64,000 bases of DNA, taken from NCBI RefSeq assembly GCF_025822765.1, contig NZ_JACKUK010000023.1:701535-765534 (forward strand), written 5' to 3'. A program made the translations under genes and the position numbers. Below are positions 14,749-57,630 of the stretch, in pieces. The stretch comes from Mycobacterium barrassiae. Lineage in GTDB: Bacteria; Actinomycetota; Actinomycetes; Mycobacteriales; Mycobacteriaceae. Every line of letters begins with the position of its first letter. Position 1 is the first letter of the stretch. A model generated the notes under the pieces. That model worked only from the letters and a program-made list of their open reading frames with translations, was not told where the DNA came from and did not search any database.

Positions 14749-15198
14749 TCATCCGACCGCGAAAAGCTCCAGCTGGATGTTGTCGGGGTCGCGGAACACC
14801 ACCGTCGCGAAGGGGAACGGCTGATCCCCCGCCCTGATGCCGGAATGCTCGATGCCGAGTTCATCGAGCCGGGCCGTCCACGCCTCGAGATCGGCGCGCG
14901 TGGCGACGTTCAGCGCGAGGTGGTCCAGCCCTGTACGCGCCTCGTCGAACGGCTGCCCGTCGTTGCCGGTGTTGGTGTGCAGGCCGATCACGACGCCCGA
15001 GCGCGGTTCGACGAGCAGTTCGCCGTAGCCGGTGTCCTCACATCCGTAATGCGGGAATTTCATCGGAACCCGGTCGGCGCCGAGCAGGCGCTCATACCAG
15101 GCCAGGCTGGTCTCCAGGTCGGTGACGGTGATGGAGACGTGGTGGATTCCGGTGATTCCTACCGGTCCGCTTTGATCTGGCTGCATAACGTCGGTCAT
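14749..15198 (-). CDS. VOC (glyoxalase/bleomycin resistance) family protein
   Basis: This 149-residue protein has two beta-alpha-beta-beta-beta modules. It begins GIHHVSITVTDLETSLAWYERLLG (metal-ligand His in the first strand) and ends with a second module containing GLDHLALNV and FRDPDNIQLELF (metal-ligand Glu). It is a probable metal-dependent isomerase, lyase or dioxygenase of unknown substrate. The ATG at 15198 is chosen; the frame extends to 15327 but overlaps the SigF promoter. It diverges from the sigma factor gene. Confidence 0.85.
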   Translation of the reverse strand: MTDVMQPDQSGPVGITGIHHVSITVTDLETSLAWYERLLGADRVPMKFPHYGCEDTGYGELLVEPRSGVVIGLHTNTGNDGQPFDEARTGLDHLALNVATRADLEAWTARLDELGIEHSGIRAGDQPFPFATVVFRDPDNIQLELFAVG

Positions 15199-15261
15199 AT
15201 CAGAAACTGCCACCCGCCCCGCGTCATTGGGCGGATTCTGCGTCTCACGCCGTGTACGGTG

Positions 15262-15288
15262 GGTTTCAGGACGTCGTCCGGGGGGTAT
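15262..15288 (+). promoter_or_regulatory. SigF-type promoter upstream of the sigma factor gene
   Basis: GGTTT (15262-15266) and GGGTAT (15283-15288) are separated by 16 bases. This is the mycobacterial SigF consensus (GGTTT, N15-17, GGGTA) without mismatch. It is 67 bases upstream of the sigma factor start at 15356, so the sigma factor gene is predicted to be under SigF-type, perhaps auto-, control. Confidence 0.75.
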
Positions 15289-15355
15289 AGCCCGGACCAC
15301 GAGAGGTTCAGATCCGAGCCGCGTCATGCACTACGCAGTACCGGATAGGGGCTTC

Positions 15356-16156
15356 ATGTCTGAACCGACTTCTGAGTACGCCGACCTCACCGAGATGTTC
15401 CGCCATTTGGCGACCCTCGATGAAGGTTCCCCGGCGTACCGGCGTCAACGCGACGCCATCATCGAGCGAGGTCTTCCGCTCGCCAATCACATCGCACGGC
15501 GCTTCCGAAACCGTGGCGAGCCGGTCGACGATCTCATCCAGGCGGCCCGCGTGGGCCTGGTCAACGCCGTCAACCGCTTCGACCCCGAGAACGGCTCCGA
15601 TTTCCTGGCGTTCGCTGTGCCGACGATGATGGGCGAGGTGCGCCGCCATTTCCGTGACTACGGCTGGGCGGTGAAGGTGCCGCGCCGGCTGAAAGATCTT
15701 CAGAGCCAGATGGTCAGGGCCCGCGGCGAACTGTCACAAGAGCTCGGCCGCGCGCCGACGCCCTCCGAGATCGCGAAACACCTTGGCATCGAACGGGAAT
15801 CGGTGATCGAAGCGACGATTGCGAGCAGCAACTACACCACGCTGTCGACCGACGTGCAGGCCGGGCCGGACGCCGAGTATCGGGCCATCGGCGACACGAT
15901 CGGCGATGTCGACCCCAACCTGGACAAGGTCGTCGACCTCGAGACGGTGCGTCCGCTGATCGCCGCCCTGCCGGATCGCGAGCAGACCGTGTTGACGCTG
16001 CGGTTCTTCGAGAACCTGACCCAGACGCAGATCGCCGAGCGGATGGGCTACTCACAGATGCACGTGTCGCGGCTCATCGCCAAGGCCCTCAACACCCTGC
16101 GGGAGCAGGTCCGCGAACCGGAGCGAGCCGACGCCCGCGAACTGGTGTCCGCCTGA
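15356..16156 (+). CDS. SigB/SigF/SigG-family alternative sigma factor
   Basis: This 266-residue sigma-70 family protein is of the SigF (general stress/sporulation) group. Region 2 is LANHIARRFRNRGEPVDDLIQAARVGLVNAVNRFDPENGSDFLAFAVPTMMGEVRRHFRDYGW, region 3 reads RAPTPSEIAKHLGI, and region 4 reads LPDREQTVLTLRFFENLTQTQIAERMGYSQMHVSRLIAKAL. In the core sigF locus an anti-sigma factor (RsbW/UsfX) gene lies upstream; here there is none, so this is probably a paralogue controlled elsewhere. A perfect SigF-type promoter precedes it. The MMPL-FHA gene follows after 85 bases on the same strand. ATG at 15326 is an alternative start. Confidence 0.92.
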   Translation: MSEPTSEYADLTEMFRHLATLDEGSPAYRRQRDAIIERGLPLANHIARRFRNRGEPVDDLIQAARVGLVNAVNRFDPENGSDFLAFAVPTMMGEVRRHFRDYGWAVKVPRRLKDLQSQMVRARGELSQELGRAPTPSEIAKHLGIERESVIEATIASSNYTTLSTDVQAGPDAEYRAIGDTIGDVDPNLDKVVDLETVRPLIAALPDREQTVLTLRFFENLTQTQIAERMGYSQMHVSRLIAKALNTLREQVREPERADARELVSA

Positions 16157-16241
16157 TCTCCTAAACCCCGCCCGACCAGCCTCGACGCGGGGCCGCGCCG
16201 GCCTTTAGAAAGTGCCAAGGTCCGCACCGCACCCTTCTTGC

Positions 16242-19200
16242 ATGTCTTTTGTCGGGTTGCTGGTGAAGCTGATGCGTAGCGGCATCTTGACGCGCTTGGC
16301 CGCATTCACCGTGCGGTCCCCCAAGCTGGTGCTCGGCGCTGTGGTGGTTCTGCTCGGCGTCAGCATCGTCATCGGCGGCGGGGTCTCCGACAAGCTCGCC
16401 GTGGGCGGCTACAACGCCCCGTCATCGGAGTCGACGCACGCGGCCGAGGTCATGGACCAGAACTTCGGCACGACCGCGAACCTGGTCATCCAACTGCTGC
16501 CGCGGGAAGGCACCATCGACGACCCCCAGTCGCTCGATGTCGCCGGTCAGGTGACGGACCAGATCAAGGCGGAGCCGGACGCGAAGGTGACGCGTTCGTT
16601 CACCGACAAGTCGGCCACCGACCTGCGCAGCCGCGACGGTCGCTCCGGTCTGATCCTCGTTCACGTCAGCGGCACCGCGGATGAGGCCGCCGACACCGCG
16701 AAGGAGTTGATCGCCGGACTGCCCGACAACCCGAATGTCGAGGTGCGCGCCGGCGGCACCCTCGGCGTCCAGCAGGAGATCCGCGCCAAGGTCAAGAACG
16801 ACATCAAGATCAGCGAAAGCATCGCATTGCCGGTCTCGTTGGCAGTGCTGGTCATCGTTTTCGGCGGGCTCATCGCCGCATTTCTGCCGATCGCCGTCGG
16901 TATCACCTCGATCGTCACCACGCTGCTCGTACTCGTGCTGATGACCACGGTCACCGAGGTGTCGACGCATGCGCTGACGGTCGCCACGGCCTTCGGTCTC
17001 GGCTTGTCCATCGACTTCGGCCTGCTGATGGTGTCGCGGTTCCGGGAGGAGCGCGCCAGCGGCAAGGATCACCAGGCGGCGATCATCGCGACGGTCGCCA
17101 CCGCCGGCCGCACGATCATCTTCAGCGCCGCGACGGTCACCCTGGCCATGATGTCGCTGCTGGTGTTTCCCACGTACTTCCTACGGTCGGTGGGCATCGC
17201 CGCGAGCGCGACCGTCGTTTTGTCTGCATTGAGCGCCATCGTCGTGCTGCCCGCGATGCTCGCCATGCTGGGGACGCGCATCGACTCGCTGGCCATCATC
17301 AAGCGCAAGACTCCGCCGTCGGCCGATTCCATGTTCTGGCGGCGGTTCGCGGAAAAGGTCATCCAGAAACCGCTCACGTATGCCCTGCCGGTCGTCGTGG
17401 TGCTCATCGCCCTCGGAGTCCCGTTCCTGAAGGTGCAATTCACCAACCCCGATGAGCGCGCGCTGCCCACCGACTCCAACGCGCGCCAGGTGGCCGAGTC
17501 GCTGCAGCGCGACTACCCCCTCGACCCGTCGCAGGCGATCACGTTGGTGACGCAGAACGACGCAGCCTCGCTGGATGCCCTCGCCGCCGAAGTGTCCGGT
17601 ATGGACGACGTGGTTCTGGTGGACGGTTCGATCGGACGGTTCGAACGAGGCGCACGTGTCGCCCCCGCGCCGCCGGGCGAGGCCAACGGCGCCGCCTACG
17701 CGCTGGCTTACCTTGCGGTGGATGCGGATTCGGAAATCGCTGAACACCTCGTGCACGACATCCGCGCGAAGATCACCGACAAGCGGGTCGAGGTGGGCGG
17801 ACCGACCGCCACGCTCCTCGACAGCAGGCACGCCATCGCCGAGCGGCTGCCGTGGGCGATCGGATTGATCGCGGTCTTCACCTTCATCCTGCTGTTTCTG
17901 TTCACCGGCAGCGTCGTCGTGCCCATGAAGGCGCTGCTGCTGAACCTGCTGGTGCTGTCCGGCGTCCTCGGCGTCATGGTGTGGATCTTCCAGGACGGGC
18001 ACCTGTCATCGCTGCTGGGATTCACCCCGGCGCCGCTGAACCTGTCGATGGTAGTTCTGCTCTGCGCCATCGCATTCAGCCTTTCCGTCGACTATGAGAT
18101 CTTCCTGCTGAGCCGGATAAAGGAAGCCCGCGACTCGGGGATGTCGAACAACGAAGCGATCGTCGTCGGACTCGGTCGGGTCGGCCGGATCGTCACCAGC
18201 GCAGCGCTTCTGCTGACAATCACGCTGGTGTCGTTCGCCAACGGCATGTCGTTCATGAAGATGTTCGGCATCGGCACGGCGCTGGCCGTCGTAATCGACG
18301 CGACCATCATTCGCGGAGTCGTCGTGCCGGCATTCCTGCGCGTCGCAGGCGAACTCAACTGGTGGGCGCCGAAACCATTGCGGTGGCTGCACTCCCGTAT
18401 CGGTATCAGCGAAGCGCTGTCGTTCGCCGTCGATGAGGTGACGTCGGAGGTGCCGCACCGCACCGCGGACGCGCTGCCCGCAGAGCTGCTCCGCACCCTG
18501 GCCGTCAAGCGCGCCGAGCTGGCGGGGCGGGTCCAGGTGGTGTCCGGACAGCACCTGGTGGCGAACGTGAACGGCACCGTGATCGTGGTCGCCAACCGCA
18601 GTTCGTTGTCCCAGCAGGCCATGGCCGCGCAGCAGATGTCGCATCTCGTCGAGATCGTGCGGCGGACCGAGCCCGAGATGTTGGCGTATGCGTTCTCGCA
18701 GCTCACCCGCAGCACCACGTGGAGCCGAGATCTGGCAGAGGTCGGCGTCGTGATTCCGACGGCCAAAGGCCTGGAGATCTTCCTGTGCGGCGGGGTGACC
18801 GTGACGCTCGACAACGGCACAAGCGTCACCCAGATCGAAGGACGCAACCGCTGCCTGCACCGTTCCGTTCAGGTCCCCGGCGTCGCGGCGGTGGTCAGCG
18901 TCGACGAGCTCGGTAAGCGGCCCGCCGTGGCGCCGCCGCATCGCAACGACGCCTACGCGCTCGCCGATGGCGTCGTGCACGGCCGGGGTGCGGTGGTGTG
19001 GTCGACGGACGCCGCGCCTGCCCCTGCGCCCGCGGGGCCGGCACCGGTCGCGACTCCCTTCTCGGGTCCCTCCTCGAGTCCCCTCTCGACCAAGCCGACG
19101 CAGGAGTTCTCGGTGCCCACCCAGTGGGTGGTCCTCGATGACAATTCCCGGCTGCGGATCGACCGTGACTGCGTCATCGGCCGGGACCCACACGGTTCGA

Positions 19201-19502
19201 GTGCCGCGCGCGAAGGTCTTCGGCCGCTGCGCATCGACGACAGCTCGGGCCTGATGTCTCGCGCCCACATGGAGATTCGCATCGTCGACGGCGAACTGGT
19301 GGTCCTCGACCGCAACTCGACCAACGGCGTGCTGATGCGCGAACCGGGTCAGCAGATCTGGACGCGCCTTGTGCCGTGGCAGCCGGTGGTCTTCCGGGCC
19401 GGCGCGTCGGTGCGCGTCGGTGGGCGGACCCTTCATGTCGAGTCGGCCGACGAGCGTACGCGCCGGCTGACACCCGTGTACGCCCCCGCGATATCGGCCT
19501 AG
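16242..19502 (+). CDS. MMPL/RND transporter fused to a C-terminal FHA domain
   Basis: This is a 1086-residue inner-membrane protein. Two RND/MMPL halves (TM1 near residue 30, clusters near 200-350 and 540-690) carry the proton-relay positions LSIDFGLLMVSRFREE (Asp-Phe, not Asp-Tyr) and LSVDYEIFLLSRIKE (Asp-Tyr). After the last helix comes a cytoplasmic region of about 200 residues, a Pro/Ala/Ser linker (about 923-953) and an FHA domain. The FHA domain has all its hallmark residues: IGRDPHG (about 976), SRAHMEI (about 1005) and NSTNG (about 1024). FHA domains bind phosphothreonine, so transport may be gated by Ser/Thr kinases. Substrate unknown; no MmpS partner. Alternative starts are 16212 (GTG) and 16272 (ATG). 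Confidence 0.93.
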   Translation: MSFVGLLVKLMRSGILTRLAAFTVRSPKLVLGAVVVLLGVSIVIGGGVSDKLAVGGYNAPSSESTHAAEVMDQNFGTTANLVIQLLPREGTIDDPQSLDVAGQVTDQIKAEPDAKVTRSFTDKSATDLRSRDGRSGLILVHVSGTADEAADTAKELIAGLPDNPNVEVRAGGTLGVQQEIRAKVKNDIKISESIALPVSLAVLVIVFGGLIAAFLPIAVGITSIVTTLLVLVLMTTVTEVSTHALTVATAFGLGLSIDFGLLMVSRFREERASGKDHQAAIIATVATAGRTIIFSAATVTLAMMSLLVFPTYFLRSVGIAASATVVLSALSAIVVLPAMLAMLGTRIDSLAIIKRKTPPSADSMFWRRFAEKVIQKPLTYALPVVVVLIALGVPFLKVQFTNPDERALPTDSNARQVAESLQRDYPLDPSQAITLVTQNDAASLDALAAEVSGMDDVVLVDGSIGRFERGARVAPAPPGEANGAAYALAYLAVDADSEIAEHLVHDIRAKITDKRVEVGGPTATLLDSRHAIAERLPWAIGLIAVFTFILLFLFTGSVVVPMKALLLNLLVLSGVLGVMVWIFQDGHLSSLLGFTPAPLNLSMVVLLCAIAFSLSVDYEIFLLSRIKEARDSGMSNNEAIVVGLGRVGRIVTSAALLLTITLVSFANGMSFMKMFGIGTALAVVIDATIIRGVVVPAFLRVAGELNWWAPKPLRWLHSRIGISEALSFAVDEVTSEVPHRTADALPAELLRTLAVKRAELAGRVQVVSGQHLVANVNGTVIVVANRSSLSQQAMAAQQMSHLVEIVRRTEPEMLAYAFSQLTRSTTWSRDLAEVGVVIPTAKGLEIFLCGGVTVTLDNGTSVTQIEGRNRCLHRSVQVPGVAAVVSVDELGKRPAVAPPHRNDAYALADGVVHGRGAVVWSTDAAPAPAPAGPAPVATPFSGPSSSPLSTKPTQEFSVPTQWVVLDDNSRLRIDRDCVIGRDPHGSSAAREGLRPLRIDDSSGLMSRAHMEIRIVDGELVVLDRNSTNGVLMREPGQQIWTRLVPWQPVVFRAGASVRVGGRTLHVESADERTRRLTPVYAPAISA

Positions 19503-19522
19503 CACCCAACGGCTCCTACCCG

Positions 19523-19579
19523 CGAGAGTGCACTCACGGTTGTTGTCGCCGCCTCACAACAGCCATGAGTGCACTCTCG
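19523..19579. repeat. Long imperfect inverted repeat (24-base arms)
   Basis: Arms 19523-19546 and 19556-19579 pair with two mismatches over 24 bases around a 9-base loop. Each arm contains the self-palindrome GAGTGCACTC. It lies 20 bases after the MMPL-FHA stop and 70 bases before the next gene on the same strand. It may act as a terminator or RNA-processing signal, or be a copy of a dispersed palindromic element. The sequence does not recur elsewhere in this window. Confidence 0.75.
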
Positions 19580-19649
19580 ACGATGAGTTTCGCCGCCGCG
19601 GCTGGTCTCTATCTCCGACACACCATCAACCGCACTTCAGGGGAGCCTC

Positions 19650-20249
19650 ATGACCGCCACGTACACCTTCGACGTCTTCTCCAGCCTGGACGGGTTCGGC
19701 GGCGTCAACGGCGGGGACTGGGGCGGCTACTGGGGCAAGCAGGGCCCCGAACTGCTCGACCATCGTCTCTCGCTGTACGACCAGGATCAACGAATGGTGT
19801 TCGGTGCCAATACGTATCGGTTGTTCGCGCAGATGGTGGCCGAGAGCACCGAGGAGTCAGACGTACGCGATCCCTGGGTCACCCGGATGCGGCACCTACC
19901 GACCATCGTGGTGTCGTCGACCTTGGAGGCGCCCCTCGACTGGCCCCACGCGACGGTCGTGAGCGGTGATGCCGTCGACGTCGTCGCCCGACTCAAGGAA
20001 GAGTCGCAGGTCCCGTTGCGGTCACACGGCAGCCTGTCGATGAACCGTGCGCTGATGGCTGCCGGCCTGGTCGACCGCCTTCAGGTCACGGTCTTCCCGG
20101 TGATCACCGGTCAGACCGGTGATGATCCGATCCTTGCCGGCGCCGCCGACTTCGACCTCGAGCTGATCGAAAGCCGAACGCTCGACGGCGACATCCAGGA
20201 ACTCGTCTACCGGCCCACCCTGCACACAGCGCACAGCGGCCGGGGCTGA
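19650..20249 (+). CDS. Dihydrofolate reductase / RibD C-terminal family protein
   Basis: This 199-residue protein begins YTFDVFSSLDGFGG, the N-terminal strand of RibD_C/DHFR-like reductases, followed by RMVFGANTYRLFAQM, TIVVSSTLEAPL, LRSHGSLSMNRALMAAGLVDRLQVTVFPVITG. The last block is the most diagnostic part of the family. Members are NADPH-dependent reductases of uncertain substrate and seldom true DHFRs. The ATG is preceded by AGGGGAGCCTC. A strong hairpin starts inside its last codons. Confidence 0.85.
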   Translation: MTATYTFDVFSSLDGFGGVNGGDWGGYWGKQGPELLDHRLSLYDQDQRMVFGANTYRLFAQMVAESTEESDVRDPWVTRMRHLPTIVVSSTLEAPLDWPHATVVSGDAVDVVARLKEESQVPLRSHGSLSMNRALMAAGLVDRLQVTVFPVITGQTGDDPILAGAADFDLELIESRTLDGDIQELVYRPTLHTAHSGRG

Positions 20250-20268
20250 GGCTGCCCGGCCGCTGTGC
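20231..20268. terminator. Bidirectional terminator hairpin
   Basis: GCACAGCGGCCGGG (20231-20244) and its perfect complement (20255-20268) form a 14-bp GC-rich stem with a 10-base loop. The stem covers the stop codon of the DHFR-like gene and ends 12 bases before the stop of the convergent hydrolase gene. No T-tract is present, as usual for mycobacterial intrinsic terminators. Confidence 0.8.
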
Positions 20269-20280
20269 ATAGGGGGTGTG

Positions 20281-22047
20281 TCAGTAGTCGGCGGCCGCCT
20301 TCTGAACGACGACGTCGAGTTCTTCGGCGAGCAGAAACCGCTCGGCAACAAGCGATTCGGCCGCACGTCGCGCTGCGGCGACGTAGTCCTCACGGGACGG
20401 ATACCGGTCGGTGACCGACGGACGTCCCGGCGGGAATGCCACCTTGCTGCCGACCCGCTCATAGAGGACATCGGGCAACTCGTCGATGTGGCGGCGCGGG
20501 TTCCACCCCGTGTATGCGGCCAACGGCGCGGCGACCGAGGGCAGCCGGATGCCGGCCACCTCGTTACCGTCTTCGTCGACCGCCGACACCAGGTCGACGT
20601 ACGGCGCGCCCAGTTTGATCGGCCAGCGGCCGATTCCACGATCGGCATCGGGGCCCAGGTCGATGTCCCGCGTGTACGGAAGCGCCGACGGATCGGGGGC
20701 CGCGATGTGGCTGAACAGCGACAGGACTTCCTTGCGGGCCACCGCCGTGCCGTCGCTGGTCCGCGGCACCTTGCTCGGCGGAGGCTCGACACCTTCGCAG
20801 ACCCAGTCCTCGAGCGCCGCGAACAGGGCCCGGTTCACGGGCGTGACGTCGAGGCGGTGCACCGGGTTGGCCGTCGGGAACGCCTCCTTGAGCTTGCTGC
20901 TCCCGAAGTGGTCGGTGCTGGCCAACAGGTACGTGCGGACATCGGGATCCTCGGGCAAGTCCGCACCCGTGACCGGGTCGACGTGCAGCAGTGCGCCGCC
21001 GCTCTGCCAGTACTCTGTCGCACTGTTGGTGAAGATCGTCTTCGGCACACCGCCCAATTGACGTTGCCGCGCAAGCAGTTCGGCGGCCGCGAAAGGCGCC
21101 ACATTTCCGAAACCGTTGACCTGAGCCACCGAGGGCTGCGCATACCGGTGGTTGAACTCACCGGTGGCCGCACTGGCGGACTCGCTGAAGACGCCGTCGA
21201 AGACGGCCATGCCGGTCTCATCGATGTTGAGTCCGTCGGCGAGGAACTGGCGCAGGAGCCGTCCGGCCTGTGAGACTCCATAGGCGAAGGCGTGCTCGAT
21301 GCCGTCACTTCGAAGATGCGCCACGATGTCGCGGATGGCCAGCATGCCGCAGCCGACGACGGGGGTCCGCGCCGTCCGGTACACCAGCTCGTACCAGTGG
21401 AAGGGCCTGAAGCCGCCGTCGAGTTCCAGATGCGTCTCGTCGGTGAATCGCCAACGGTCCCTTGGGATGACGGTGGGCTCGGCGTCCGGCGAGGTGCGCA
21501 CGCTCAGCACGGCGTCGGGGTCGTCGACGTCAACGGTCGGGTAGTCGGTGAAGGTGAACAACGCCTCGGCGCCGGCGGGCAGTGCGTCGATCTCGGGCAC
21601 CGTGAAGCTGAGCGGGTGGTCCGCGCTGGCGCTGTCCGATCGCCATTCCAGGCGCATGAATCCCGGCGGCACGTCGGCGTGAGGGACGGACATGCCAAGG
21701 ATTGCCGGCCCGCGCTGCACATCCCACTGCCAACCACACGACGCGATGGTGTAGCCGCGGTTGAGCAGGAAGTCGTTCTTCAGCCACGGCGCAAGGGTCG
21801 GTACGCCGCGATTCGGTACGACGAAGAGCAGCTTGCCGTTGCCCCCGTCGACCGGACGAAGAAGTTTCAGGTCGGCGTCGAACCGCACCAGGCTGTCGTC
21901 GTCGCGAGGTGCGAGCTCGAGGTCGACGATGCGCTCGTTGGCAAGCAACTCGGGATCGACGGCGAAATCGACCGTCGCCTCTACCCACTCGTAACGGTTG
22001 TCAGAGTGGGGATAAACCGTTTTGACGTGAACTGACTCGACGGTCAT
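20281..22047 (-). CDS. Alpha/beta hydrolase-domain protein (ABhydrolase_10-like), 588 aa
   Basis: This large hydrolase has an N-terminal beta-rich half (FAVDPELLANERIVDLELAPRDDDSLVRFDADLKLLRPVDG) and a C-terminal catalytic half with GVSQAGRLLRQFLADGLN, where the Ser of GxSxAGR is the likely nucleophile. The length and layout fit the PF20091-type group of actinobacterial and proteobacterial hydrolases, whose substrates are mostly unknown. The ATG at 22047 follows GAAGGAG; a GTG at 22053 is also in frame. It shares an 18-bp upstream motif with the next hydrolase gene, so the two may be co-regulated. Confidence 0.8.
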   Translation of the reverse strand: MTVESVHVKTVYPHSDNRYEWVEATVDFAVDPELLANERIVDLELAPRDDDSLVRFDADLKLLRPVDGGNGKLLFVVPNRGVPTLAPWLKNDFLLNRGYTIASCGWQWDVQRGPAILGMSVPHADVPPGFMRLEWRSDSASADHPLSFTVPEIDALPAGAEALFTFTDYPTVDVDDPDAVLSVRTSPDAEPTVIPRDRWRFTDETHLELDGGFRPFHWYELVYRTARTPVVGCGMLAIRDIVAHLRSDGIEHAFAYGVSQAGRLLRQFLADGLNIDETGMAVFDGVFSESASAATGEFNHRYAQPSVAQVNGFGNVAPFAAAELLARQRQLGGVPKTIFTNSATEYWQSGGALLHVDPVTGADLPEDPDVRTYLLASTDHFGSSKLKEAFPTANPVHRLDVTPVNRALFAALEDWVCEGVEPPPSKVPRTSDGTAVARKEVLSLFSHIAAPDPSALPYTRDIDLGPDADRGIGRWPIKLGAPYVDLVSAVDEDGNEVAGIRLPSVAAPLAAYTGWNPRRHIDELPDVLYERVGSKVAFPPGRPSVTDRYPSREDYVAAARRAAESLVAERFLLAEELDVVVQKAAADY

Positions 22048-22097
22048 TTCCACTCCTTCGGTTCGATGGTTGTTGGGTAGGAATTTGCGGGTAGGGG

Positions 22098-25107: not shown

Positions 25108-27963
25108 TTAGGCCGGCTGGTGCTCGTCGCGGTCGCCGAAGACCTTCTGCATCCGACGTCTGGACGCGGGCGTCTGCACCCGCTGCGGCCACCAGAACCA
25201 CCGGCCCATCAGCGCCGCGATCGAAGGCGTCATGAACGACCGCACGATCAACGTGTCGAAGAGGAGACCCAGTGCGATGGTGCTGCCGACTTGCGCGATG
25301 CTGAGCAGATCGCCGAACACGAACGACGCCATCGTCGCGGCGAAGACCAGGCCCGCCGACGTCACCACGGATCCGGATCCCGCCATCGCGCGGATGATGG
25401 CCGTCTTGAGCCCGTGATGAAGTTCTTCCTTGAACCGGGACACGAGCAGCAGGTTGTAGTCGGAACCGACTGCCAGCAACAGGATCACGGACATCACCAG
25501 CACGATCCAGTGCAGACGAATGCCGAGAATGTGTTGCCAGACGAGCACCGAAAGCCCGAAGGAGGTGCCCAGCGACAGCAGCACCGTGCCGACGATGACC
25601 GCTGCCGCCACGACGCTTCGCGTAATGAGCAGCATGATGATGAAAATCAGTGTGGCAGCGGACATCCCGGCGATGATCAGGTCGAAGTTGGACCCGTCGT
25701 GCATGTCCTTGTAGGTCGCTGCGGTACCACCCAGATAGATGGTGGATCCTTCGAGTGGCGTGCCCTTGATGGCTTCTTTGGCCGCCTGCTTGATCGCGTT
25801 GATCCGGGCAATACCTTCTGGGCTCGCCGGATCGCCCTCGTGCTCGATGATGAAGCGCACCGACTTGCCGTCGGGTGAGATGAAGTTCTTGATGCCGCGT
25901 TTGAAGTCCTCGTTCTCGAACACTTCCGGCGGCAGATAGAACGAGTCGTCGTTCATCGATTCGTCGAAGGCGTCGCCCATCGCGGACGAGTTCTCCTGCT
26001 GCGCCGCCATCTGATCCTGCATGCCCTTCTGCGAGGCATACATCGTCAGCATCATCGTCTTCATGGTCTTCATGGTCTGGATCTGCGCGGGCATCAGCGC
26101 GACCAGTTGCGGCATCAGCGAATCGAGATGTTCGAGATCGGGCAGCAGGGCCTCGATGTCGGCGGTCATGATGTCGACGCCGTCGAGGGTGTCGAAGATC
26201 GACCGGATCGAATAGCAGACCGGGATGTTGAAGCAGTGCGGTTCCCAGTAGAGGTAATTCCGCATCGGCCGGAAGAAGTCATCGAAGTTAGAAATATTGT
26301 CACGCAGCGCCGCGACGTCGACGGTCATCGCCTTGGTCTTGGCGACCATGCTGTGCGTGATGTCCGCCATCTGCTGCGTCAGCTCCGACATCCGCGTGAG
26401 CGTTTCGATGTTCTTCTGCATGGCGTCGGCCTGAACCAGCATGTCGGCCATCCGGTCCTGGTTGTACTTCTGGTTCAGCTGGTTCGTCGTGCCCTGCATG
26501 CTCAGCAGGAACGGAATGGTCGTGTGGTCGATGGGCTTGCCGTCGGGACGGGTGATCGTCTGTACCCGCGCGATGCCTGGCACTCGGAAGATCGCCTTGG
26601 CGATCTTGTTGATCACCAGGAAGTCCGCCGAGTTCCGCAGGTCGTGGTCGCTTTCGACCATCATCAGCTCGGGATTCATTCGGGCGCTGTCGAAATGCCG
26701 GTCGGCGGCGGCGTAGCCGATGTTCGCCGGAGTGTCATCCGGCATGAAGTGGCGTCCGTCGTAATCGGTCTTGTAGCCCGGCAGCGCGAGTAACCCGACC
26801 AACGCAAGAGCGCACGTGGCCACCAGAATCGGGCCTGGCCACCGCACGACGACCACACCGATCCGACGCCAACCCCGGGAGGCGATCGCGCGTTTGGGGT
26901 CGAACAGACCGAACCGGCCGCCGATGACGACCACCGCGGGGCCGAGCGTCAGTGCGGCCATGACCGCGACAAAGATGCCCACCGCGCACGGGATCGCCAT
27001 GGTCTGGAACCACGGCAGGCGGGTGAACTTGAGACACAGCAGCGCACCGGCGATGGTCAGGCCCGAGCCCAGCACCACGTGCGCAGTGCCGTGGAACATC
27101 GTGTAGTAGGCGGTTTCCCGGTCTTCGCCGGCGCCGCGGGCCTCCTGGTACCGGCCGATGAGAAAGATCGCGTAGTCGGTGCCCGCCGCGATCGCGATGA
27201 GCGTCAGCAGGCTGGTGGCGAACGTGGACAGCCCCATGACGCCGATGTCTCCGAGGAACGCGACGATGCCGCGGGACGACCCGAGCTCGATGAACACCAT
27301 CAGCAGGATCAAGATCGTCGTGGCGATCGAGCGGTAGACGATCAGCAGCATGATGAAAATGACGACGAGCGTCGCGAGGGTGGCCTTGGCCGCGCCCTTG
27401 TCGCCGGCGACCCGCTGGTCGGCGTTCATCGCCGCGCCGCCGGTCACGAACGCCTTCACGCCTGGCGGAGGAGGGTTCTTCTCGATGATCTCCCGCACAA
27501 CGGCGATGGACTCATTGGCCAGCGTCTCGCCCATGTTCCCGCGAAGGTAGAGCTGGACATAGGCGGCTTTGCCATCGTTGCTCTGGGCGCCCGCCGCGGT
27601 CAGCGGATCGCTCCAGAAGTCCGCGACGTGCTCGATGTGCTCGGGATCGTCCCGGAAGGCCTTGATCAAGTTGTCGTAATAGCGATGGGCCTCGTCGCCG
27701 AGGGGCTGCTCGCCCTCGAGGATGACCATGGCATTGCTGTCGGAGTCGAACTCCTCGAAGTTCTTACCGATGCGCTGCATGGCGATGAAGGCCGGTGCGT
27801 CGTGAGCGTTCATCGACACGCTGTTGGCCTCGCCCACCGCTTCCAGGGACGGCACGAAGAGGTTCGTCACGACGGTCAACGCCACCCAGCCGAGCACGAT
27901 CGGCACGGCGAGCACTCGGATGGCGTGAGCGATCTTAGATCGCTCGGTGGTGACAGAACTCAT
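25108..27963 (-). CDS. MmpL-family RND lipid/siderophore transporter
   Basis: This 951-residue transporter has the MmpL4/MmpL5-type architecture: TM1 near residue 20, a periplasmic loop, five helices, a long periplasmic/coiled-coil domain (about 420-720) and five more helices. The two proton-relay pairs are [15 protein letters not shown] (about 262) and [17 protein letters not shown] (about 834). The central [25 protein letters not shown] and the Met-rich coiled coil are typical of MmpLs that assemble with MmpS. No mmpS gene is adjacent, unlike the paralogue at 54733-57630. An AT-rich palindrome lies upstream at 28039-28048. Confidence 0.93.
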
Positions 27964-54732: not shown

Positions 54733-57630
54733 CTAGACGCGCCCGAGTTCGTCGTCCTCCCATAGGAGCAGCTGCCGCACCGCCGGGCGGGGTCCGTAGG
54801 GCCGCAGCATCGTGCTCGACGGGCGGGGCCGGACGCGCAGCGGCCACCAGAACCAGCGCCCGAGCAACACGGCGATCGACGGTGTCATGAAAGCGCGCAC
54901 GACGAGGGTGTCGAAGAGCAGACCGAGGGCGATCGTCGTGCCGATCTGGCCGAGCACGATCAAATCGCTGTAGACGAACGATGCCATGGTGAAGGCGAAC
55001 ACCAACCCTGCCGCGGTGACGACCCCACCGGTGCCGGCCATCGCCCGGATGATGCCGGTGTTCAAGCCGGCGCCGATCTCCTCTTTGAAGCGGGATATCA
55101 GCAGCAGATTGTAGTCCGAACCCACTGCGAGCAGCAGGATGATGGCGAGCGGGATGATCACCCAATACAACTGGATGCCCAGAAGGTGCTGCCACACCAG
55201 GATCGACAGCCCCAGCGAGGCACCGAGCGACAGCACCACGGTGCCGACGATGACGACCGCGGCAACCATGCTGCGGGTGATGAACATCATGATGAGCAGG
55301 ATCAGGCTGAGCGCGGCGATGACGACGATGATCAGGTCGTACTTGGCGCCCTCCTGGATGTCCTTGTACGTCGCCGCCGTGCCGCCGATATAGATGTGGG
55401 ATCCCGCCAACGGCGTCCCCTTGACGGCCTCCTCCGCCGAGTGGCGGATCGCGTCGATATGCGAAATACCCTGCGGGGTAGCGGGATCGACGTCGTGGGT
55501 GATGATCATCCGCGCGGCTTTGCCGTCAGGAGACAGGAACAGCTTCAAGCCGCGCTGGAACTCGGCGTTGTCGAACACCTCCGGCGGGACATAGAACGAG
55601 TCGTCGGTCTTGGACGCGTCGAACGCTGCCCCCAGCGCGGTTGAGTTCTGTAGCGCCGCCGCGTTCTGACTGTAGATTCCCGACAGCGTCGCGTAGTTGG
55701 TCATGACCAGGTCGCGATTCGTCAGCTGACTGGCGATCTGGGGCGGGATCAGCTTGAGCAACTGCGGCTGAATCGCATCGAGCTTGTCCAGGCTCGTCGT
55801 GACGTTCGCCAGCTGGTCGGTCAGCGCATTGATCCCGTCCAGCGCGTCGAACAGCGATCGGAACGCCCAGCAGATCGGGATATCGAAACAGTGTGGCTCC
55901 CAATAGAAATAGTTGCGCAGGGGGCGGAACATGTCGTCGAAGTTGGCGATCTTGTCCCGTAAGTCTTGGGCGACGGCGACGGTTTGGTGAAACGCCTGGA
56001 CCTGTTCGTGCGTCGCATCGTTCGCCTGTGATTGCAAAGTGGCCTGCTGCCGCAGAATGCCGATCGTCTTGTCGATCTCGTTGACCTGCTTGAGCAGGTC
56101 GTTGGCCCGGTCCTGCTGATAACCGAGATTCTGTATCTGCCCGGCACTTTGGGCGCTGATTTGGAACGGGATGGACGTATGGTCCAACGGTGTACCCAAG
56201 GGGCGGGTGATCGATTGCACCTGGGCGATGCCGGACGTGTGGAAGACGGCCTTGGCCACGCGTTCCAACAGGATCATGTCGGTCGGATTGCGCAGGTCGT
56301 GGTCGGCCTCGATCATCAGGAGTTCGGGGTTGAGCCGGGCCTTGGAGAAGTGCCGCTCAGCAGCGGCATACCCGACAGTCGACGGGGCACGGTCGGGCAG
56401 GTAGTTCCCGACGTCGTAACTGGTCTTGTAGCCCGGCAACGCCAAAAGTCCCACCGCGGCCACCGCCAGTGTGGCCACCAGAATCGGCCCGGGCCACCGA
56501 ACGATCGCGGTGCCGATCCGGCGCCATCCCCTGGTGCGCGTTTTGCGTCTGGGATCCAGCAGGCCGAAACGGCCACCGATGATGATCACGGCGGGCGCCA
56601 GCGTGAGCGCCGCCAGTAGTGTCACCAGCACACCGATCGCGGCAGGAATCCCGAGGCTCTGGAAGTAGGGCAACCGGGTGAAACTCAGGCAGAACACCGC
56701 GCCCGCGACGGTCAGACCCGAGCCCAGGATCACATGTGAAGTACCGCTGTACATGTTGTAGTACGAGGTCTCACGATCGAGCCCGTTGTTGCGGTCCTCG
56801 TGGTAACGACCCAGCAAGAAGATTGCGTAGTCGGTGCCTGCCGCGATGACCAGCAGGGTGAGGATGTTCGTCGAATATGTCGAGAGACCGATGGCTCCGG
56901 AATTGCCCAGGAACGCCACAATGCCACGGGCGGCGGACATTTCGATGAGGACGGTGATGAGCACCAGGATCATCGTCACCACCGAGCGGTAGACGAACAG
57001 CAACATCACCGCGATCACCACGATGGTCAACACGGTGACTTTCGTGGTGCCTTCGTTGCCCACCTCGAATTGATCTGCGACCTGCGGTGCCGGACCTGCG
57101 ACGTAGGCTTTGACACCGGCGGGCGGAGGCGTGTTCTTCACGATGTCGCGCAATGCGTCAACGGATTCGATCGACCGTGCTGAGCCCTGATCCCCGATGA
57201 GGAAGACCTGGACGTACGCCGCCTTACCGTCCGCGCTCTGCGAACCAGCCGCCGTCAGCGGGTCACCCCAGAAGTCCTGGACATGCTGAACGTGCTTCTG
57301 ATCCTGTTCAATGCGCTGGACCAGCCTGTCGTAATACTGGTGCGCTTCCGCACCGAGAGGCTGGTCGCCTTCCAACACGATCATCGCCGCGCTGTCGGAG
57401 TCGAACTCCTGGAATACCTCGCCAATCTTCTTGAACGCCTTCAGCGACGGCGCGTCAGGTGAGCTCAACGCCACGTTCTGCGCTTCACCGACAACCTCCA
57501 GCTGCGGAACCAAGGAGTTGGTGAGTCCGGCGACAACCAACCAGAACAAGACGATCGGCACCGCAAGCCAACGAACCCGCTTCGCGACGCGGTGGGTCAG
57601 AGTCTCGCGGCTTTCCACCTGGTTGCTCAT
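54733..57630 (-). CDS. MmpL-family RND transporter
   Basis: This 965-residue MmpL is paralogous to the one at 25108-27963 (shared WEPHCFDIPICWAFRSLFDALDGIN and [21 protein letters not shown]). It has two transmembrane bundles and proton-relay pairs [12 protein letters not shown] (about 265) and [16 protein letters not shown] (about 838). The ATG at 57630 overlaps the mmpS stop by ATGA, so the pair is translationally coupled, as in mmpS4/L4 and mmpS5/L5, which export siderophores or drugs. The frame to 57795 is mmpS antisense in register and is not native. Confidence 0.93.
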   Translation of the reverse strand: MSNQVESRETLTHRVAKRVRWLAVPIVLFWLVVAGLTNSLVPQLEVVGEAQNVALSSPDAPSLKAFKKIGEVFQEFDSDSAAMIVLEGDQPLGAEAHQYYDRLVQRIEQDQKHVQHVQDFWGDPLTAAGSQSADGKAAYVQVFLIGDQGSARSIESVDALRDIVKNTPPPAGVKAYVAGPAPQVADQFEVGNEGTTKVTVLTIVVIAVMLLFVYRSVVTMILVLITVLIEMSAARGIVAFLGNSGAIGLSTYSTNILTLLVIAAGTDYAIFLLGRYHEDRNNGLDRETSYYNMYSGTSHVILGSGLTVAGAVFCLSFTRLPYFQSLGIPAAIGVLVTLLAALTLAPAVIIIGGRFGLLDPRRKTRTRGWRRIGTAIVRWPGPILVATLAVAAVGLLALPGYKTSYDVGNYLPDRAPSTVGYAAAERHFSKARLNPELLMIEADHDLRNPTDMILLERVAKAVFHTSGIAQVQSITRPLGTPLDHTSIPFQISAQSAGQIQNLGYQQDRANDLLKQVNEIDKTIGILRQQATLQSQANDATHEQVQAFHQTVAVAQDLRDKIANFDDMFRPLRNYFYWEPHCFDIPICWAFRSLFDALDGINALTDQLANVTTSLDKLDAIQPQLLKLIPPQIASQLTNRDLVMTNYATLSGIYSQNAAALQNSTALGAAFDASKTDDSFYVPPEVFDNAEFQRGLKLFLSPDGKAARMIITHDVDPATPQGISHIDAIRHSAEEAVKGTPLAGSHIYIGGTAATYKDIQEGAKYDLIIVVIAALSLILLIMMFITRSMVAAVVIVGTVVLSLGASLGLSILVWQHLLGIQLYWVIIPLAIILLLAVGSDYNLLLISRFKEEIGAGLNTGIIRAMAGTGGVVTAAGLVFAFTMASFVYSDLIVLGQIGTTIALGLLFDTLVVRAFMTPSIAVLLGRWFWWPLRVRPRPSSTMLRPYGPRPAVRQLLLWEDDELGRV

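Follow-up and report, generated by a model that had tools for sequence, protein, structure and literature searches.

An MMPL exporter with a phospho-signalling tail suggests protein kinase control of lipid export in mycobacteria

The mycobacterial envelope is built by MMPL exporters, and the control of lipid export by kinases is largely open. In the 64 kb stretch of Mycobacterium barrassiae DNA analyzed here (the window), one gene appears to continue from an MMPL exporter into a C-terminal FHA domain, raising the questions of what this tail consists of, where it came from, and whether it could place the pump under the command of Ser/Thr kinases. The gene and its parts are the following:

16242..19502, + strand: MMPL - PP2C-fold - FHA exporter gene, 1086 aa in a single frame
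16284..18407, + strand: MMPL/RND exporter core, residues 15-722 (PF03176 in two stretches)
18519..19013, + strand: predicted PP2C-fold domain, residues 760-924, a probable pseudophosphatase
19014..19121, + strand: variable Pro/Ala/Ser linker, residues 925-960 (low pLDDT, non-conserved, loosest dN/dS)
19122..19442, + strand: FHA domain, residues 961-1067 (PF00498 scanned alone, Foldseek, signature residues)

The exporter core

A check of the open reading frame found its bounds to be right, from the ATG at 16242 to the stop at 19502. An alternative GTG start is also present upstream of this ATG, at 16212. Pfam identified two copies of PF03176 with 242.4 bits (cut-off 20.5), which places the protein in the MMPL/RND family and agrees with the first-pass annotation of a complete MMPL transporter. 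Judged by its sequence, the product is a proton-driven MMPL exporter whose core is complete.

The closest solved structures to the membrane part are those of MmpL3, with which, as with other MMPL exporters, the protein shares the MMPL core. However, it scored 403.5 bits with the NCBIfam equivalog for MmpL3 (NF052608), far from the cut-off of 1400, and it differs from MmpL3 also in its FHA and PP2C-fold tail and in its first proton-relay motif. Asp-Tyr pairs serve as proton relay in both MMPL repeats, as in MmpL3, while the window exporter has Asp258-Phe259 in the first repeat and Asp617-Tyr618 in the second. The Asp-Phe pair had already been pointed out as a feature of this gene; it is real, but it is not peculiar to it. 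All 28 aligned members of the exporter family carry Asp-Phe at this position, whereas 20 of 21 other MMPLs carry Asp-Tyr (the remaining one had no match to the motif), so that Asp-Phe is a trait of the family. The Asp residues are kept, and the change from Tyr to Phe does not exclude membership in MMPL/RND.

The FHA domain

Pfam did not report an FHA domain on the whole 1086-aa protein at E≤1, and for this reason we scanned the tail separately. PF00498 then passed its cut-off of 20.7 bits, with a score of 22.5 for the tail (390 aa) and of 24.8 for the 112 C-terminal residues alone. We note that these scores lie barely above the cut-off. A scan of the exporter's own genome for FHA domains (E≤0.001) listed ten other places, and the window exporter was not among them.

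FHA domains are marked by the signature residues GR, SxxH and NG. The first-pass annotation had read this signature in the tail, and it is present (R981, S1006, H1009, N1028-G1029); across related proteins, the complete set is kept in 25 of 26 FHA domains of the MMPL family, in 10 of 10 FHA domains fused to MFS transporters and in 29 of 40 free-standing proteins (both latter sets are described below). A fold search, also suggested in that annotation, recovered the domain as well. In the predicted structure of residues 722-1086, the FHA part is modelled with high confidence (82-95 when averaged over ten residues), and Foldseek matched the predicted tail to the FHA domains of ArnA (5a8i; 1.7e-6) and FhaA (5.3e-6), followed by OdhI and GarA. 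The best 50 of the 56 PDB rows at E≤0.001 were FHA chains or entries holding an FHA domain, judged by their titles. The model thus supports a genuine FHA domain with a beta-sandwich fold, which would be expected to bind phosphothreonine.

The PP2C-fold domain and the linker

The segment between the exporter core and the FHA domain was predicted to adopt a PP2C fold over residues 760-924. Pfam (E≤0.001) gave no match to this middle domain, no PP2C emerged when its profile was searched against solved structures, and hhalign against 25 PP2C sequences, chosen by a motif rule and some of them offset or short, returned a probability of 0.5%. Since a sequence-level link to PP2C was not found, the assignment rests on the predicted structure. 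PP2C enzymes require several invariant Asp residues. Among 52 relatives of the middle domain, however, no column reached 60% Asp (the highest had 56%, and the highest for Asp and Glu together 77%). That the domain works as a PP2C phosphatase and resets the ligand of the FHA domain, as the fold by itself would allow, is extremely improbable in the light of these columns; the domain is probably a pseudophosphatase, with a predicted PP2C fold and without the conserved catalytic Asp set. It differs from TAB1 and other pseudo-PP2C proteins, which are eukaryotic and have no transporter, and no sequence similarity to them was found.

The tail had been described as a cytoplasmic segment and a Pro/Ala/Ser linker leading to the FHA domain. 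The linker is indeed present (residues 925-960 or thereabouts, with pLDDT below 50 across much of its length), but it is not conserved, and the description was incomplete, as it missed the predicted PP2C fold of the segment and the homology of the whole tail to free-standing regulators.

The linker also bears on how the FHA domain may act. GarA and OdhI, which share the FHA fold, are soluble proteins that bind to themselves once an N-terminal motif is phosphorylated. The exporter might similarly carry an intramolecular latch, in which the FHA domain would fold back onto a Thr of the same tail once a kinase has phosphorylated it. The presence of Thr residues in the window linker, the FHA domains of GarA and OdhI among the best structural matches, and the Thr-rich stretches kept before the FHA domain in the MFS fusions all fit such a latch. 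However, neither the length of the linker nor its Thr residues are conserved among MMPL fusions, about nine residues being left in L127-L129, and inspection by eye of the linker alignment did not find a conserved Thr among them; the phosphorylated N-terminal motif of GarA and OdhI has no conserved counterpart in the window exporter either. We consider the latch improbable.

Distribution and selection of the fusion

The first-pass annotation had called for a survey of MMPL-FHA fusions and their neighbours. Among 396 genomes of the genus, this survey recovered at least 23 in which a single frame encodes the MMPL core, the middle domain and the FHA domain; the window genome is one of them. Variants in the genus were an MMPL-FHA protein without middle domain (G511) and MMPL proteins with middle domain and without FHA (G311 and G244). 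Beyond the genus, among 151 genomes of the family, we identified the fusion in G001 and, interrupted by a stop, in G032, and the exporter alone in G145. Genus and family counts are lower bounds, since only the best four or five candidates per genome were scored. FHA-bearing matches of the genus survey in G187, G415, G442, G453, G494 and G507 were left out of further analysis; the interrupted gene of G032 (L053) was left out of the exporter alignment and tree, and was included in the counts of neighbouring kinases and of signature and zinc-ribbon motifs. The full one-frame fusion was present in all six named loci (Mycolicibacterium tusciae DSM 44338, two Mycobacterium asiaticum, two Mycobacterium strains and a Mycobacteriaceae MAG), and it is kept across differing gene neighbourhoods. 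A plasmid search matched 63 records, none of them covering 80% of the query.

The 28 aligned members form one group (support 100/100), apart from the 21 other MMPLs. In the midpoint-rooted tree the branches leave in the order L054 (no tail), L052 (full fusion), L137 with L138 (no FHA domain) and L146 (no middle domain, and the FHA arginine lost), followed by 23 full fusions in which the window exporter belongs to a subclade of seven. Since L054, L137, L138 and L146 lack parts of the tail, not every family member needs it.

Such single-lineage losses, of FHA in L137 and L138 and of the middle domain and the FHA arginine in L146, would be expected if the tail were a vestige with no regulatory role. 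We regard this as very improbable, given the low dN/dS of both tail domains in 15 pairs, the signature kept in all but one of the FHA domains of the family, and a fusion kept in no fewer than 23 of the 396 genomes, across differing neighbourhoods. Over these pairs dN/dS ranged from 0.04 to 0.15 in MMPL, from 0.09 to 0.33 in the middle domain, from 0.00 to 0.26 in FHA and from 0.00 to 1.30 in the linker; both tail domains are under purifying selection.

Descent of the tail

The middle and FHA domains of the exporter are homologous to those of free-standing proteins of the order, of which we analyzed 40 (L166 and L199, with no called free-standing gene, were left out). Unlike the exporter, these PP2C-fold/FHA proteins are not fused to a transporter, often have a kinase gene nearby (see below), and in 30 cases out of the 40 have a zinc-ribbon-like motif, which was not found in any of the 26 MMPL fusions or the 10 MFS fusions. 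In L150-L152 the free-standing gene adjoins a large gene; in L151 the product of this large gene is an exporter of the Rv1747 type (FHA-FHA-ABC).

The FHA domain is also found on an unrelated class of exporter. Pfam names MFS_1 and FHA in L140, and nine other MFS-FHA proteins are 88-96% identical to it in the MFS part. Genes for an aminodeoxychorismate-synthase-like protein and for a chorismate mutase share a cluster with the MFS fusion. In a midpoint-rooted tree of 51 FHA domains (20 of the 26 from MMPL fusions, 8 of the 10 from MFS fusions and 23 of the 40 free-standing ones), those of the exporters all cluster together (99/97) and are separate from the free-standing FHA domains. The MFS-FHA domains fall within MMPL-FHA, with 93/80 at the fork that nests them, and none of 200 bootstrap trees sets the MMPL-FHA domains apart from the rest by a single branch. 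This topology fits a capture of the domain by an MMPL exporter and a later transfer to an MFS exporter, provisionally, given the rooting and the short domain.

It is tempting to see in this a transferable cassette for reading phosphorylation: an MMPL exporter would have captured a kinase-linked pseudophosphatase-FHA regulator, and the FHA domain of this regulator would later have passed to the MFS exporter, which is unrelated. Ser/Thr kinases would thereby command the export of specialised lipids and other metabolites in mycobacteria, and the pseudophosphatase would add a second, non-catalytic means of sensing phosphoproteins. We put this forward tentatively. The MFS fusion offers a second exporter in which to test the coupling of kinases to export.

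Kinase genes and the control of export

Using a kinase model built from one seed, which Pfam calls Pkinase, we found a kinase gene within 7 kb at 29 of the 40 free-standing loci, at 0 of 29 exporter-family loci and at 0 of 10 MFS-FHA loci; as these loci are related, the counts are not independent events. By chance, about three kinase genes are expected in the 529 kb around the free-standing genes and about two in the 393 kb of exporter-family flanks, and with only about two expected the zero near the exporters is not a depletion. The window genome (5.9 Mb) has about 27 kinase genes (30 matches, as some genes were matched in more than one piece). These results support the earlier proposal that a kinase, if any, acts on the exporter in trans.

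We lean, by a narrow preponderance, towards an exporter with a cytoplasmic phospho-signalling tail, made of a dead PP2C-fold domain and an FHA domain, whose export is switched by kinase-dependent docking on phosphothreonine. The tail module would derive from free-standing regulators often located beside Ser/Thr kinase genes. The substrate of a kinase encoded elsewhere would be either a partner protein or the exporter; the resulting phosphothreonine would be bound by the FHA domain, and the pseudophosphatase could take part in docking as a scaffold or as a second binding site. Docking of the FHA domain would then turn export up or down. Most likely, the FHA domain would recognise a partner that a kinase acting in trans has phosphorylated on threonine, and would in this way control or position export. 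Speaking against this reading are the FHA score barely above its cut-off, the absence of kinase genes found within 7 kb of the exporter-family and MFS-FHA loci, and the family members that lack parts of the tail. With the reader domain covalently attached to the pump, the coupling of kinase to export is directly testable through R981 or through residues 760-1086.

The tail could instead be a localisation device, in which the FHA and PP2C-fold domains dock the exporter to a phosphorylated scaffold, such as the polar growth machinery, with no gating. Many envelope proteins including MmpL3 were pulled down by FhaA, according to the available text of PMC11898655, and the persistence of members without FHA (L137, L138 and L054) is expected if the tail merely positions the pump; the PP2C-fold domain kept under selection speaks against it. 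We hold localisation without gating to be rather unlikely, and prefer phosphothreonine docking as a switch of export.

Several known systems join envelope export to phospho-signalling, as described in the available text of the cited papers. Rv1747 of M. tuberculosis likewise has an exporter and cytoplasmic FHA in one polypeptide and is regulated through Ser/Thr phosphorylation (PMC3908365, PMC5549992), its kinase being PknF (PMC3908365); its FHA is bound by Rv2623 (PMC5549992). In contrast to the window exporter, Rv1747 is an ABC exporter with two FHA domains at its N-terminus and a kinase gene in the same operon, and a PP2C-fold domain is not mentioned in that text; at the Pfam level the window exporter has MMPL and no ABC domains, and none of the 29 family loci has a kinase gene within 7 kb. 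MviN (Rv3910), whose pseudokinase recruits FhaA (PMC12599244, PMC11898655), is similar in combining a membrane transporter of envelope precursors, a dead phospho-signalling domain and FHA-based control; however, in those sources its dead domain is a pseudokinase instead of a pseudophosphatase fold, another protein supplies the FHA domain, and the transporter fold is different. With a pseudophosphatase attached to its transporter core, the window exporter would mirror MviN and its pseudokinase. MmpL7 is reported as a potential PknD substrate (PMC2877116, PMC3908365). We did not find literature on an MMPL-FHA protein among open-licence PMC papers. FHA-bearing exporters are thus already known; what is new here is that the exporter belongs to the MMPL class, that it carries a predicted PP2C-fold pseudophosphatase, and that its FHA domain has apparently been reused on an MFS exporter.

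Neighbouring genes and cargo

Among the 29 exporter-family loci, a TauD-type dioxygenase gene (cluster c1) lies directly upstream of the exporter in 13, and an Abhydrolase_10 gene (c3) at most two genes downstream in 12. In the window this recurrent neighbour is:

20281..22053, - strand: Abhydrolase_10 gene (PF20091)

A KS-AT-ACP-oxoamine-synthase gene (c29) is found beside or near the exporter in 7 of the 29 loci, six of these seven with FAAL and ACP genes (the domains of this operon were named from L052, L137 and L130). Of the 28 family genomes, nine contain a full-length c29 orthologue; in two of the nine it lies at a different locus. Since the four early branches carry c29, we infer that the oxoamine synthase was the ancestral source of cargo. 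The lipid exported in the ancestor was probably of the acyl/aminoketone type, and a fatty-acyl-AMP ligase, a carrier protein and the KS-AT-ACP-oxoamine synthase would have made it. The same operon was considered as a present source of cargo in the window genome and rejected, as no full-length match was found there; without that synthase, the present cargo of the window exporter may differ.

The sigma factor gene upstream

Three features precede the exporter gene:

15262..15288, + strand: SigF-like promoter (GGTTT-N-GGGTAT) before the sigma gene
15395..16156, + strand: SigF-type sigma factor gene, 253 aa (Sigma70 regions 2, 3 and 4)
16202..16220, + strand: CCTTTAGAAANNNCCAAGG-like non-coding block, conserved, immediately upstream of the exporter gene

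The first-pass annotation had placed a SigF-type gene 85 bases before the exporter. The gap is 85 nt, and the product scored 376.8 bits with the NCBIfam SigF subfamily NF005514 (cut-off 372); a paralogue 62% identical to it is located elsewhere in the window genome. The arrangement is shared by all seven loci of the window subclade, with gaps of 68-93 nt, and it is restricted to this subclade, since other branches have other neighbours. A scan of positions 14900-20400 did not find a sigma-70-type promoter or a terminator between the two genes; shuffled sequence would yield 2.5 terminator-like matches, and the single one observed, at 18585, falls within the coding frame. A pattern resembling the SigF promoter consensus precedes the sigma gene in all seven syntenic loci, with diverged spacers, and within the 64 kb window alone it is weak (2 matches against 0.39 expected; 5 of 100 shuffles gave at least 2). 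Expression of the exporter may be driven by SigF. The non-coding block just before the exporter gene could be aligned in all seven loci and shows few changes.

Genes adjoining the exporter and related FHA proteins

Just 5' of the exporter start we found a conserved block, kept in 7/7 loci, that bears no resemblance to the SigF consensus:

window 16202-16220, CCTTTAGAAANNNCCAAGG-like block

At seven loci, including the exporter-family loci L052 and L130, the exporter is adjoined by a FAAL + ACP + KS-AT-ACP-oxoamine synthase operon, of a type that would be expected to yield long-chain aminoketones; a literature search listed no paper connecting oxoamine synthase with mycobacteria.

L052:10784-16943, oxoamine-synthase operon
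L130:1124-7349, oxoamine-synthase operon

The exporter's FHA lineage also occurs fused to an MFS transporter, at ten loci (L139-L148 and L174). Nine of the ten share a conserved surrounding cluster (DAHP synthase, chorismate mutase, aminodeoxychorismate-synthase-like, prephenate-dehydrogenase-like, ATP-grasp and AMP-ligase genes), which looks like a p-aminophenylalanine-type pathway.

L140:7830-9602, MFS-FHA gene (example)

Forty free-standing PP2C-fold / zinc-ribbon / FHA proteins, lacking a fused transporter, form one family (loci L149-L154 and L165-L201), and Pfam gave no name to the N-terminal domain in the six proteins scanned. Ser/Thr kinase genes often adjoin theirs, and an FHA-FHA-ABC exporter gene is a neighbour at some of the loci.

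Other MMPL genes

Two more large MMPL genes lie in the window; after the second comes a gene of 134 aa, possibly MmpS-like. Elsewhere in the same genome (G000, contig C9), a small MMPL gene (754 aa) adjoins a divergent Ser/Thr kinase gene.

window 25108-27963, large MMPL gene, 951 aa
window 54733-57630, large MMPL gene, 965 aa
G000:C9:151866-152609 (-), Ser/Thr kinase gene
G000:C9:152835-155051 (+), small MMPL gene
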